Below, piece after piece: positions 34,925 to 44,374 of a stretch of DNA of 64,000 nt (its first letter is position 1; each line of letters starts with the position of its first letter). The stretch covers positions 4,402,001 to 4,466,000 of the forward strand of contig NZ_CP007139.1 of the NCBI RefSeq assembly GCF_000724625.1. The letters are read 5' to 3'. Made by a program: the position numbers and the translations under genes. The notes below the pieces were generated by a model, which had not been told where the DNA came from, searched no databases, and saw only the letters and a list, made by a program, of their open reading frames with translations. The stretch comes from Fimbriimonas ginsengisoli Gsoil 348 (GTDB lineage Bacteria; Armatimonadota; Fimbriimonadia; Fimbriimonadales; Fimbriimonadaceae).

Positions 34925-36001
34925 TTAGGAGATAGTCCCACCGGCCGCCACCGTTTTGCCCCGATAAGCGACGGCGATCTGCCCCGGAGTGACCGCTCTA
35001 ACCGGACGGTCGAACACCAAACGTGGCCTCGCACCGCCGTGCAACGTGGCCGGCTGAGGCTCCATGTTGTAGCGAATCTTCGCTTCCACCCGCATCGGCG
35101 GAGCGTTGGAGCTCATCGCTCCCCAGTGCAGATCCTCTAGAACGACCTCGGATTTCAGCAAGTCGTCCGCCTCTCCGACGACCACTCGGTTCTGCCCGGG
35201 ACTGATGCCGAGGACGTAGAGCGGCTTCCTCGCAGAAACGCCCAACCCCTTACGCTGGCCGATAGTGAACCCCGCCACCCCCGCGTGCTCGCCGACGACG
35301 TTGCCGTCGGTATCGACGACCTCGCCAGGGGCAAACACCTCCGGGCGCTGCTTTCGCAAGAACTCCGCGTAGCCACCGGCCTCGCTCACGAAGCAAATCT
35401 CTTGAGAGTCCGGTTTATCCGCCAGATGCAGCCCCAGCTCTCGCGCCAAATCGCGCACCTGCGCTTTACTTGGCATTTCTCCCATCGGGAACCACGCCTT
35501 GGAAAGCTGCTCCTGCCCCAGCATGTAGAGCACGTAGCTCTGGTCCTTGTCGGCCGCCCGAGAGCGCAGCAGCCGATACCGTCCCGTCGCCGAGTCGCGG
35601 CGGATGCGTGCGTAATGCCCGGTTACCAGCCGGTCGCATCCGAGCTCGCGCATCTTCCCCATCAGCACTTCGAACTTCACGTGCCGGTTGCACTGCACGC
35701 ACGGGTTGGGGGTGCGGCCAGCCGCGTACTCGTCGATGAAGTTCTCGATCACGGAGGCGCGAAACTCGTCGCGCAGGTTCATCACGTAGTGGGGGATGCC
35801 GAGCACCCGAGCGACACGCCGGGCATCCTCGACCGCGCCGAGCGAGCAGCACCCGGCGTGCCGCGGGTCGGTCTGGCTCTCCTGCCAGATCTGCATCGTC
35901 AGCCCGACAACGTCGTAGCCGCGGCGCACCAAAAGCGCCGCGGCAACCGAGCTGTCGACGCCGCCGGACATGGCGACGAGAACGGTGGGCTTAGCCGCCA
36001 T
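34925..36001 (-). CDS. mnmA: tRNA-specific 2-thiouridylase MnmA
   Basis: Thiolates U34 of tRNA Lys, Glu and Gln with sulfur relayed from a cysteine desulfurase. The P-loop is [16 protein letters not shown] (about 8-23); the catalytic cysteines are in [14 protein letters not shown] (about 100) and [15 protein letters not shown] (about 197); GQRKGLGV is the tRNA-binding region. 358 aa, full length. Its start overlaps the upstream VKOR-DsbA gene by 11 nt, so the two are in one transcript. A NifS-like gene lies 7 kb away at 43310. Confidence 0.95.
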
Positions 36002-37166
36002 GCCCGTTGATGATGTCCTGGTACTTGGCGCTCGCGAGACCTTCCATAACCTGGGTCGGCCCGTAGGTATCGAGCACTTTGTCGCCGCTCATCATGAAGA
36101 AGGTCGGCGTGCTGGTGATGCCCAGTTCCTTCACCGTCTTCAGGTCGCGACTGACCCGGTCGTACGCCGGGTCGTTCGGATCTTGGAGGCGGGTCCGCAC
36201 CTTATCCTCGCTGACCCCGTTCGACTTCGCGATCTGGATCAGCTCCTCGATGTCGTTGGGCTGGCGCTGGAGGGAGAGTACGCCCATGGCGTACTCCCAG
36301 AACCGATTTTCGTCCGCCGCGATCTCAGCGATCGCCGCGGCCGCGTTCGCCAACGGATGGATCTGGCTGAGCGGGTAGTGCCGGTAAACGAGCTGGATCT
36401 TGCCGGGATGGTTGTGGACATACTCCTTCACCTGCGGCGAAGTACGCTGGCAAGCGGGGCAGCAAAGGTCGGCGAACTCGACGATCGTCAACGGCGCATG
36501 CTCCGGCCCCATCATGTGGGCGCCGGGAGGAACCAGCGTCGCATAGCTCACCTTCGACATCTTGATCCCTTGGAGGCCGCCGGCGTCTTTCATGGTAGAG
36601 CCCATGATGACGATTCCGACCGTCAATGCCGCCGGAAGCACCCAGAGCAAGGTGGCGTCCAGTCGCTGGCCGCTGCGAGCCACTACCGGCGTCGCATCTG
36701 CCTCGTCCGCAACGGTGGTTTCCACCGGAGCCGGCATATTCTCGAGCTCTTGCGCCAGCAAGGCGTAGACGATGAGCGTCACGACCATCGTAGCCGCCGA
36801 AGTCAGACACCAAAGGCAGGTGGCGTGGATGACGAAAAACGACTTGTATTGCAGATAGAGGCTGAATACCGTCCCGATCGTCGTGACGATGTAGCCGACA
36901 GTGACATATTTCCGCCAGTCGGCAACCGGAATCAGGGTGCGCATCACCGCGAGTCCGGCCAAGATCAAATAGCCAAGCGCTCCGAGGTACGCCACCGGAA
37001 TCCCGGCCAGCTTCGAGCTCGGATCGGCGGCGACGATGGCACAGCCACTGCCGGCGCCGCAAGGCACAGCAAGGTTAAGGCCGGCTTCCAAGCTAAGGAC
37101 GCCGGCGACGAATAGCCCGACGAACGCGAGCACTAAGAGAACACGATTGAGAAGGATTGCCTTCAC
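35991..37166 (-). CDS. VKOR-DsbA fusion, disulfide-forming membrane protein
   Basis: 391 aa. N-terminal vitamin K epoxide reductase domain (1-150; four or five helices) with [13 protein letters not shown] (CxxC, about 118) and loop cysteines CGAGSGC near 36-42. Linker helix about 178-196 ([16 protein letters not shown]). C-terminal DsbA-like thioredoxin domain with the active site [12 protein letters not shown] (CPAC) and the cis-Pro loop [13 protein letters not shown] passes electrons to quinone and reoxidises DsbA, so the fusion is a self-contained oxidative folding unit. GTG start, with TATACT 6 nt before it. Overlaps mnmA. Confidence 0.9.
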
Positions 37167-41576: not shown

Positions 41577-42044
41577 ATGCCCTTCCGAATCGTTGAAGGC
41601 GACCTCCTCGACCAATCGGTAGAGGTGATCGTGAACGCGTGGAATCGAAACACCATCCCTTGGTGGCTCCTTCTTCCGCAGGGCGTCAGTGGAGCGATCA
41701 AGAAGCGCGGTGGTACCGCGCCCTTCCGCGAGCTTGCCAAGCATGGCCGGCTCCGGTTGGGGCAGGCGGTTGCGACGTCCGCCGGGCGACTGCCATACAA
41801 GGCGATCATTCACGTGGCCGGCATCGACGATTTCTGGCGCGGAAGCGAAAAGTCGATCCGTGAGTCGGTGCGAAACGCACTGGCGTTGGCGAACAGCCGC
41901 GGTTGGAACAGCTTCGCTTTCCCGATTCTCGGCGCCGGCTCGGGCGGTTTCGATGCCGAAACCGCCGAGCGGATCATGAGCGAAGAGTTGGAGAGAGCCC
42001 CCGCCGAACTCGATATCGTCCTTGTTCGGTACAGGAAGCCCTGA
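41577..42044 (+). CDS. macrodomain (ADP-ribose-binding) protein
   Basis: 155-aa protein that is a single macrodomain. Motifs: VEVIVNAWNRNTIPWWLLLP (V-NA region; the usual NAAN is NAWN here), GVSGAIKKRGG, LRLGQAVATSAGRLPYKAII and HVAGID, and SFAFPILGAGSGGFDAE (phosphate loop, about 113-129). Macrodomains bind or hydrolyse ADP-ribose derivatives. The WW insertion and NAWN variant suggest a diverged binding pocket. Four bases separate it from sucD, so they may share a transcript. It is convergent with the thioredoxin gene. Confidence 0.8.
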   Translation: MPFRIVEGDLLDQSVEVIVNAWNRNTIPWWLLLPQGVSGAIKKRGGTAPFRELAKHGRLRLGQAVATSAGRLPYKAIIHVAGIDDFWRGSEKSIRESVRNALALANSRGWNSFAFPILGAGSGGFDAETAERIMSEELERAPAELDIVLVRYRKP

Positions 42045-42048
42045 GACT

Positions 42049-42543
42049 TTATTTCGCTGCCAGCGCCTCCTTCACGGCTTTGTCGAGATTGGGCGGCTCG
42101 ACCGCGCGGATGAACCCTTTTCGGTCGATGACGATGACCGTGGGATAGAACTCGACGTGATACGCCTTGAGCGTCGCCATATCCTTGTCCTCACAGATAG
42201 GATAGGGGAGCTTGTTCTCCTTCACGCACTGGTCGCGCTTGGCGACGTCTTTGTCCGAATGAATTCCGATAAGGACCAAGCCTTGGCCCTTGTAGCTTCC
42301 ATAAACCTTTTTTAGTTCAGGCATGGAAGCCTTGCAAGGCCCTCACCAGAAGGCCCAGAAATCGAGAACGACGACTTTGCCTTTGAGCTTGTCGAGGGAG
42401 AGGGGGGCGCCCTTGGTATTCAACCAATGGCCAACTTGGAGCGCCGGTGCGGGCTTTCCAACCGGCGACGGCCCCTTCTGCTGCCCCGCAGCCAAGCTCA
42501 AGGAAGCCAGGAGCAGAATAAGCGATGCGATTTTTGTGCGCAT
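42049..42543 (-). CDS. TlpA-like thioredoxin with in-frame UGA, probable selenoprotein
   Basis: Reading from ATG 42543 the frame is open except for TGA at 42343-42345 and then continues in the same frame to a stop at 42049. The protein would be 164 aa: signal peptide MRTKIASLILLLASLSLAAG, AhpC/TSA-type core (SLDKLKGKVVVLDFWAFW), then [UGA]GPC (position 67-70), KASMPELKKVYG and VEFYPTVIVIDRKG (cis-Pro). TlpA/ResA proteins have WCGPC here, so the UGA replaces exactly the first active-site cysteine. Recoding as selenocysteine is the best reading. A nonsense mutation or sequencing error is the alternative. No clear SECIS is visible. 26 bp from vapC. Confidence 0.7.
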
Positions 42544-42569
42544 CCAGATAGTGTACGTCCTTCGCGAGT

Positions 42570-42998
42570 TTATTCGTCTGCCGGCGCCGAGCGGCGAAGT
42601 TGAGGAAAGCGGGCGAAGTCGGCGTCGAAGGTTACGAACAAACCGTCTTGATCGATGGCAAGTGCCGCGAGCATAACGTCGCTTACGCCCTTTCCAAGCA
42701 CCCCAGATTCCATTAGACTTTCGAACACGCCCCAAAACCTCTTGCTTGGTGCAATCGAGGTCGCAGATGGAGCTGACCGGAGAGTCTCGATGTAGTTGAG
42801 GGCATCCTGCACCTTGGCCGGAGGTTTGAATATTCGCGGGTCAGTTGAAATTCGGACTACCGATACGAGAACTGGCTCCCATAGAGCCACGGGCTCCGAT
42901 CCCTGGAGCACCCTTGTAAGCCACCGGCTTGCAACTTCGTAGTCGGCCATGCCCGGAGACATCGCTTGGAGAAGAACGTTGACGTCCGGGAAGATCAT
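42570..42998 (-). CDS. PIN-domain toxin, VapC family
   Basis: 142-aa PIN-domain ribonuclease. The acidic metal site: Asp5 in MIFPDVNVLLQAM, Glu41 in ALWEPVLVSVVR, Asp about 106 in GVSDVMLAALAI, and Asp about 124 in FVTFDADFARF. The C-terminal half has the family 'FDADFARF' strand. Such toxins cleave tRNA or rRNA and are neutralised by a co-encoded antitoxin. The start overlaps the stop of the upstream antitoxin by 4 nt (ATGA). Both acidic motifs look intact. Confidence 0.85.
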   Translation of the reverse strand: MIFPDVNVLLQAMSPGMADYEVASRWLTRVLQGSEPVALWEPVLVSVVRISTDPRIFKPPAKVQDALNYIETLRSAPSATSIAPSKRFWGVFESLMESGVLGKGVSDVMLAALAIDQDGLFVTFDADFARFPQLRRSAPADE

Positions 42999-43279
42999 CG
43001 GACTTTATTGATGTCCCCGTGTTCGTCCAACTCCAACCGGTCGAGGTAGTCGAGCACTTCGCTAGTTTTGTGGATATTGACGTTGGTGGGTAATACGCAC
43101 TTACCCATCTGGACAGACGGCAACTCAAACTTTTCTGACCGCACGCTGGGTCCGGTTAGGTAAGTGCGGGCAGCTTCCGCAACCACGTCCGAGATCGACG
43201 AGCGGCTCTCGGCGGCTCGTAGCCGGATTCGGTCGTAGAGCGATTCCTCGATCATCAACGTCGTCTTCTTTTTCGCCAC
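42995..43279 (-). CDS. ribbon-helix-helix antitoxin, VapB-type
   Basis: I choose GTG at 43279, giving MAKKKTTLMIEESLYDRIRL and 94 residues. The frame continues upstream through the palindrome (ATG at 43300 gives MACHNYGV), which would be coding in a perfectly symmetric control region. KTTLMIEESLYDRIRLRAAE then SRSSISDVVAEAARTYLTG is a ribbon-helix-helix. The C-terminus (SVQMGKCVLPTNVNIHKTSE) would bind the toxin. CATAAT lies 6 nt before the GTG, and the 36-bp palindrome over the start is a likely autoregulatory operator. Confidence 0.78.
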   Translation of the reverse strand: MAKKKTTLMIEESLYDRIRLRAAESRSSISDVVAEAARTYLTGPSVRSEKFELPSVQMGKCVLPTNVNIHKTSEVLDYLDRLELDEHGDINKVR

Positions 43280-43312
43280 GCCGTAATTATGGCATGCCAT
43301 AATTACGGCGTG
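43277..43312. promoter_or_regulatory. perfect 36-bp palindrome over two divergent starts
   Basis: CACGCCGTAATTATGGCA (43277-43294) and TGCCATAATTACGGCGTG (43295-43312) are exact reverse complements. The ends are the GTG start codons of vapB (minus) and the NifS-like gene (plus). CATAAT occurs once per strand, 6 nt before each GTG, so two leaderless promoters share one dyad. A ribbon-helix-helix antitoxin bound here could shut both. Confidence 0.85.
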
Positions 43313-44374
43313 TGGGAACGTTATTTCGACAACGCAGCTACGACCCCCGTCGATCCCCGCGTGCTTGACGAGATGCTTCCCTACCTGCGCGACGATTTCG
43401 GTAACGCCAATTCGATCCATGGATTCGGTCAGCGAGCTATGGCGGCGGTCGACCTGGCGCGAGAGCGTGTCAGCAACTTGATTGGTGCAGAGGACCCTGG
43501 CCAAATCGTCTTTACCTCCGGCGCCACGGAGGCGAATAACTGGGTAATTTCCGCCTTCTCCAACGGGGCAATCTCACCATTCGAGCACAGCGCCGTTCGC
43601 GAACCTGCCCTCCGTAAGGGCATGAAGCTGCTTGCCAACGATGATTTCGTTTTGTTTCCTCCTACCGAAACCCTCGAATTGATTTCGGTGATGTGCGTGA
43701 ACAACGAGATCGGAACGACTTGGAACGCGGCCGACTTCCGATCCTATGCCACCCACATTCACAGCGACATGACCCAGCAACTGGGTAAGACGCCGATTCT
43801 CCTCGACGGCATCGACTACGCCTCGTTCAGCAGCCATAAAGCCTATGGCCCAAAGGGGGTTGGCGCCCTCTACTTCGAAACGGCCCCTCCTTACCCATTT
43901 CAAATCGGCGGCGAACAAGAGCACGGCTATCGGGCAGGCACCCTAAACGTGCCGGGCATCGTGGGCTTCGGCGCGGCGTGTGCGATCGCGGCAGATGAAC
44001 AGGAACAGAATTTTCACCATGCGGCGCGGCTTCGCTCCGTCCTGTTGGAGGAACTGGGGAACGGCGGTCGGTGGCAAATCAACGGCGAAGGGGCTCCCGG
44101 CGTGCCCCACATCCTGAGCATCTCGTTTGACGGCATCGAAGGCGAGACCTTGGTGGTAGAAGCCGACCAAGCGGGGTTCGCGATTAGCGCGGGAGCTGCT
44201 TGTAGCTCCCGGTCGACGGAACCAAGCCATGTGCTCACGGCGTTAGGCTTTGAGGAATCTCGGCTAAGGGGAACAGTCAGAATTTCCTTCGGTAAATTCA
44301 ATTCTGTGGACTCTGTAACCGAACTTGCCAAAACGTTGAGGCATTCCGTAGAAAAGCTTCGTAGAATGATGTAG
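43310..44374 (+). CDS. cysteine desulfurase family protein (NifS/IscS-like)
   Basis: PLP-dependent enzyme, 354 aa from GTG 43310 (MWERYFDNAATTPVDPRVLD). An ATG at 43289 would add seven residues that are encoded by the palindrome. Motifs: IVFTSGATEANNWVI, SSHKAYGPKGVGALYF (PLP lysine, about 190), GGEQEHGYRAGTLNVPGIVG, and GAACSSRSTEPSHVLTALG, whose Cys (about 305) is the sulfur carrier. The catalytic loop is of the IscS/NifS type. The gene shares its control region with vapBC, which is unusual. Possible sulfur donor for MnmA, MiaB or iron-sulfur assembly. Confidence 0.85.
   Translation: MWERYFDNAATTPVDPRVLDEMLPYLRDDFGNANSIHGFGQRAMAAVDLARERVSNLIGAEDPGQIVFTSGATEANNWVISAFSNGAISPFEHSAVREPALRKGMKLLANDDFVLFPPTETLELISVMCVNNEIGTTWNAADFRSYATHIHSDMTQQLGKTPILLDGIDYASFSSHKAYGPKGVGALYFETAPPYPFQIGGEQEHGYRAGTLNVPGIVGFGAACAIAADEQEQNFHHAARLRSVLLEELGNGGRWQINGEGAPGVPHILSISFDGIEGETLVVEADQAGFAISAGAACSSRSTEPSHVLTALGFEESRLRGTVRISFGKFNSVDSVTELAKTLRHSVEKLRRMM

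Follow-up and report, generated by a model that had tools for sequence, protein, structure and literature searches.

Thiol-disulfide oxidoreductases of the ResA, TlpA and DsbE/CcmG types are extracytoplasmic proteins with a thioredoxin fold that carry Cys at both positions of the active site (WCxxC). Selenium-containing thioredoxin (PF00085), a cytosolic protein of ~100 aa, bears a UxxC motif in the same general fold. The NF041054 family, named both ResA-like WAxxUGC motif protein and UGC-containing TlpA family selenoprotein, is ResA-like with selenocysteine (Sec) in the active-site loop; its motif is UGC and its length is ~350 aa. A further family from the Sargasso Sea, the TlpA-like (cd02966) UxxC 'Thiol-disulfide isomerase-like' selenoprotein, was found by PMC1088965 and is catalogued, with MGB1650493.1 as its reference protein, in a 2026 review (PMC13188914). 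This family combines a TlpA-like thioredoxin fold and a UxxC motif with a bacterial SECIS element straight after the UGA. For the Armatimonadota, no paper on selenoproteins was found in the open-access full-text literature, and in the genome paper of Fimbriimonas ginsengisoli the tRNA count covers 20 amino acids, with no mention of selenium (PMC4072686). Selenium use in this phylum seems to be undescribed.

The window analysed here is a stretch of 64,000 nucleotides from the soil bacterium F. ginsengisoli Gsoil 348T, a member of the little-studied phylum Armatimonadota, whose genome consists of one contig of 5,231,762 bp. In this window, MRTKIASLILLLASLSLAAGQQ opens a minus-strand frame that runs from 42543 to 42049 and is closed by TAA, and its sole internal stop is the TGA at 42345-42343 (Table 1). 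An earlier note on this DNA had described the frame as intact apart from that single codon, and inspection of the letters and of the translation confirmed this. The TGA lies in the context ...VVVLDFWAFW*GPCKASMPEL..., in which WAFW-U-GPC corresponds to residues 63-70. A signal peptide was recognised by eye from the positively charged start, the hydrophobic core and the Ala-rich end. A mechanical screen of the window for further in-frame TGA candidates, judged by composition and reading, gave none that was convincing. Based on the sel genes and tRNA-Sec of the host, the UGA/Cys pattern among orthologues and a covarying hairpin of the SECIS type, the gene is very probably a genuine selenoprotein gene in which the UGA at 42345-42343 is read as Sec, as the note had proposed; the insertion itself we infer from these sequence data.

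Table 1. Features of the predicted selenoprotein gene, in window coordinates
Feature	Position	Strand	Details
TlpA/ResA-like selenoprotein gene (predicted)	42049..42543	-	164 residues, Sec at residue 67, MRTKI...WAFWUGPCKASMPEL..., stop TAA
Predicted Sec67 codon UGA, encoding U of the WUGPC active site	42343..42345	-	TGA/TGC comparison among orthologues
Putative N-terminal signal peptide region and linker	42473..42543	-	Translation read by eye; residues 11-23 of low model confidence
Bacterial SECIS hairpin, predicted	42294..42331	-	13 bp, begins 12 nt after the UGA

Three Pfam families matched above cut-off across the UGA, over residues 28-155, namely AhpC-TSA (86 bits, E 2e-24), Redoxin (77 bits) and Thioredoxin_8 (57 bits). 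The AlphaFold2 model of the protein (pLDDT 84.7) showed a thioredoxin fold, and the closest PDB folds were the C-terminal domain of DipZ and ResA. With this fold, an AhpC-TSA/Redoxin domain and a WCxxC-type site in which UGA stands for the first Cys, the window protein is a TlpA/ResA-like thioredoxin-fold protein with a putative signal peptide and a WUGPC motif. The nearest NCBIfam models were ResA, StoA and TlpA, each of which scored under its own cut-off. The top match, ResA (NF002854, E 3.9e-25), reached 88.7 bits against a cut-off of 170 bits for ResA proper, and the window protein differs from the ResA, TlpA and DsbE/CcmG proteins in having Sec rather than Cys at the first active-site position. 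Against the NF041054 (WAxxUGC_long) model it scored 39.2 bits, where the cut-off is 300, and its motif (UGPC) and shorter chain also set it apart from that family. In contrast to the PF00085 selenium-containing thioredoxin, the window protein carries a putative signal peptide, and it clears the cut-offs of AhpC-TSA and Redoxin by a much wider margin than that of Thioredoxin. The Sargasso Sea family, which is likened to it by description and has no NCBIfam model that the window protein passes, came from marine metagenomes, whereas the present group comes from Armatimonadota. The kind of enzyme is thus already known, since UxxC TlpA-like proteins are catalogued, and the window protein is another such member. 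Judging from family knowledge and the visible signal peptide, it probably acts as an extracytoplasmic reductase; family knowledge likewise suggests that the replaced Cys would be the nucleophilic one. No cytochrome c maturation genes were seen beside the gene.

The presence of selA, selB, selD and tRNA-Sec in the genome had been put forward as a check on the Sec reading, and all four were found. The tRNA-Sec scored 73.7 bits against Rfam RF01852 and was called by ARAGORN as tRNA-SeC with the anticodon tca (UCA). The next RF01852 matches in the genome did not exceed 48 bits, and ARAGORN assigned the top three among them to tRNA-Ser. In the family searches, SelA scored 461 bits and SelD 352 bits, and SelB exceeded its cut-off when the pieces were joined. 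The formate dehydrogenase-like genes of the host genome contained no in-frame TGA; hence, retention of the Sec system in this organism is not due to the commonest selenoprotein.

Two further observations were made on these genes. The host SelD has an in-frame TGA of its own within SCAGUASKLG (L018 1531-1533, plus strand), followed by a 7-bp hairpin, and is itself predicted to be a selenoprotein. Sec within SelD is a known pattern. SelD is included among the bacterial selenoproteins (PMC1794560). The frame adjoining tRNA-Sec (L001 1682-2830, plus strand) resembles an IS3-type transposase by eye, an element by which the Sec system may have been acquired or lost.

The search for orthologues covered 113 genomes belonging to the order and 291 belonging to the phylum. 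The TGA recurred at the same codon in 12 orthologous genes, spread over 11 genomes of the order, the window included (the others being G028, G048, G036, G031, G042, G023 with two copies, G050, G062, G107 and G071), and these proteins shared 46-58% identity with the window protein over the aligned parts. In two orthologues, from G025 and G143, the Sec67 codon was TGC, which places the TGA at the first active-site Cys, as the earlier note had held. When named genome contigs were searched with the window query alone, just distant Cys thioredoxins from other phyla were returned.

Between the orthologues, codon position 3 was the most variable on both the 5' side of the TGA (0.60, compared to 0.25 at position 2) and the 3' side (0.52 compared to 0.17), indicating that protein-level selection acts on both halves. 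Together with the Pfam matches that span the TGA, this bears out the claim that both sides read as good protein. The downstream half was conserved as well as the upstream half, and the genes of the relatives were not decayed. These data bear directly on whether the TGA is a nonsense mutation in a dead gene with an ancestral Cys, or a wrong base in the assembly, both of which the earlier note had considered possible. A single change suffices to convert TGC to TGA, and the published genome was derived from 22-fold 454 pyrosequencing (PMC4072686); however, the recurrence of the identical codon in separately assembled genomes makes read error irrelevant, and the conserved downstream half, the third positions being the most variable on both sides and the complete Sec system of the genome also argue against a dead gene. 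A nonsense change or sequencing error is therefore effectively excluded, and we regard it as exceedingly improbable.

The decoding of the UGA as Sec agrees with the distribution of tRNA-Sec. A tRNA-Sec scoring above 60 bits was present in 16 of the 17 genomes with a TGA-type TlpA, the exception being a genome that is 73% complete (G054). Among the 61 relatives first searched, the TGA form was associated with tRNA-Sec (Fisher exact p = 0.0007, ignoring kinship), although the counts are inflated by sequences related through descent. Within a single genus (g7), the gene of G025, a genome of 99% completeness, is of the Cys form, and the top tRNA-Sec score there is 47 bits, comparable to that of tRNA-Ser in the host genome of the window. 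In the congener G062, the gene is of the TGA form and tRNA-Sec scores 72 bits. The tree nested the Cys form of G025 in the TGA clade as sister to G042 (support 92/84), and this points to a Sec-to-Cys change upon loss of tRNA-Sec and the machinery. The association is not absolute, because G143 has the Cys form and yet has kept tRNA-Sec; the tree gives this sequence no firm placement. In the window's own genus, tRNA-Sec was absent from 15 of 19 relatives, indicating that the trait is being gained or lost nearby.

The earlier note had named two stems as SECIS candidates and judged neither convincing. Both are present in the sequence, but a better hairpin just downstream, at 42331-42294, had been missed, and the doubt arose from the two weaker stems. 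The first of these (loop UGCA) is too near the UGA and was dropped when longer stretches were folded; the second (AGGC-uuccau-GCCU) was superseded by the longer hairpin. The predicted hairpin has a lower stem of 9 bp (42331-42323 with 42302-42294), a 2-nt bulge on the 3' side and an upper stem of 4 bp (42322-42319 with 42308-42305), capped by an apical loop of 10 nt (42318-42309) that starts with G and lies 24 nt from the UGA. The fold energy was -17.0 kcal/mol. In the bSECIS model, the distance from the UGA to the apical loop is 16-37 nt, the upper stem has 4-16 bp, the minimum free energy is -7.5 kcal/mol or lower, a G occupies one of the first two loop positions and the apical loop has 3-9 nt (PMC13188914). 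The window hairpin agrees with this model in spacing, G position, stem and energy, and departs from it in loop size, the predicted 10 nt being one above the range; some bSECIS elements are known to lie outside the model (PMC13188914). A search of positions 41900-42700 with the 4227 Rfam families gave no significant SECIS or other RNA.

Taken alone, the stability of the window hairpin was only moderate in codon-preserving shuffles (z -2.3); 8 of 500 such shuffles were equally stable. Across the family, the mean z in such shuffles was -2.5 for the 12 TGA genes compared to -0.07 for 31 Cys genes (p 8e-7). In a gapless alignment of nine orthologues, the lower nine pairs were formed in 91% of cells, compared to 77% for shuffled sequences and 28-47% when the register was slid. 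The lower stem held 11 double-changed cells in these nine sequences, a number reached by none of 500 shuffles, and compensatory exchanges were seen at columns 18-49 (G-C/U-A/C-G) and 21-46 (C-G/G-C). RNAalifold recovered the same stem unprompted, and the hairpin was missing from the Cys forms. In three orthologues (G107, G071a and G023b), the site of the long hairpin was occupied by a different, short stem (6-7 bp, 6-nt loop), so the SECIS element is not uniform across the family. The loops of these short stems (L068, L069 and L091) read CGUGCC or AGUUCC, with G second.

The hairpin also bears on two ways in which the UGA could be used with little or no Sec. Reading of the codon as Trp or Cys without selenium, by a reassigned code or natural suppression, is very unlikely. 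Low-level reading of UGA by a near-cognate tRNA is possible in principle, but the Cys forms have Cys and not Trp at the homologous residue, long frames in the window still end at TGA, the TGA form tracks tRNA-Sec, and the SelB-type hairpin that follows the codon is lost in the Cys forms. It is just as improbable that the UGA is regulated or mostly terminating, such that a truncated peptide is the main product, translation re-initiates at the ATG at 42324 and Sec readthrough is minor. That ATG (Met74) is in frame seven codons past the UGA, the downstream part forms a separate open reading frame (42324-42049), and Sec insertion is generally incomplete. Against this, the WxGPC site is incomplete in either half, the position at which the UGA has been retained is precisely the catalytic one, and conservation of the hairpin suggests that readthrough is selected for.

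Assuming insertion of Sec at this codon, the following course can be proposed. SelA would make Sec-tRNA-Sec using selenophosphate supplied by SelD, and SelB would carry the charged tRNA, bind the hairpin that begins 12 nt past the UGA and allow Sec to be delivered at 42345-42343 without termination. The full-length protein would then be exported via its signal peptide and adopt the fold of a thioredoxin domain of the TlpA/ResA type, with a WUGPC site. The Sec67 selenolate at this site would attack disulfides, or else peroxides or sulfenic acids, Cys70 would serve as the resolving partner, and the protein would be re-reduced by a DsbD-like membrane protein. One DsbD-family gene was found in the host genome (C1:5134327-5134959). 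Export, the redox partner and the substrate, like Sec insertion, we infer from the features described above.

The main value of the locus is the evidence of Sec decoding in Armatimonadota together with a clean natural UGA/Cys pair. A complete Sec system is carried by F. ginsengisoli, which can be cultured, and by many Armatimonadota relatives, and standard annotation would miss or truncate the selenoprotein gene. As members of one genus, G025 and G062 offer a small natural experiment on the reasons for which bacteria retain or abandon Sec. A broader proposal, to which we give an even chance, is that a separate, uncatalogued clade of exported Sec-containing TlpA proteins arose and radiated in Armatimonadota, including a cultured strain. 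In that proposal, the SECIS element would have two geometries at the same site, one a long stem with a bulge and a large loop, the other a 7-bp stem with a 6-nt loop, and Sec would have been swapped back to Cys in one species on losing tRNA-Sec.

A second, longer TlpA group was also observed in Armatimonadota, with an N-terminal repeat-like region and a WGFWUGPC domain, and its active-site codon was TGA in eight genomes (L071, L072, L073, L074, L092, L093, L101 and L106). Shuffles revealed no excess hairpin stability after the UGA in this group (mean z +0.2). Its SECIS element, if any, would be of another type.

Several other features were noted in the window around the selenoprotein gene. A disulfide-handling protein is encoded at 35991-37166, in which a VKOR domain is fused to a DsbA-like thioredoxin domain; its matches to the Rcas_1661 thioredoxin-like (seleno)lipoprotein family and to a VKOR family model were weak. 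The region 42570-43504, immediately upstream, contains a toxin gene of the VapC family (TIGR00028, 96 bits) preceded by a likely antitoxin gene; the toxin gene lies on the same strand as the selenoprotein gene and ends 26 bp before the start of the latter. This tight spacing may be due to chance. A perfect 36-bp palindrome, CACGCCGTAATTATGGCATGCCATAATTACGGCGTG, with 18-nt arms and no spacer, is located at 43277-43312, between a divergent VapB-like gene on the minus strand and a class V aminotransferase/cysteine desulfurase-like gene on the plus strand. It occurs once in the genome, even when three mismatches are allowed, and is possibly the operator of the toxin-antitoxin pair.
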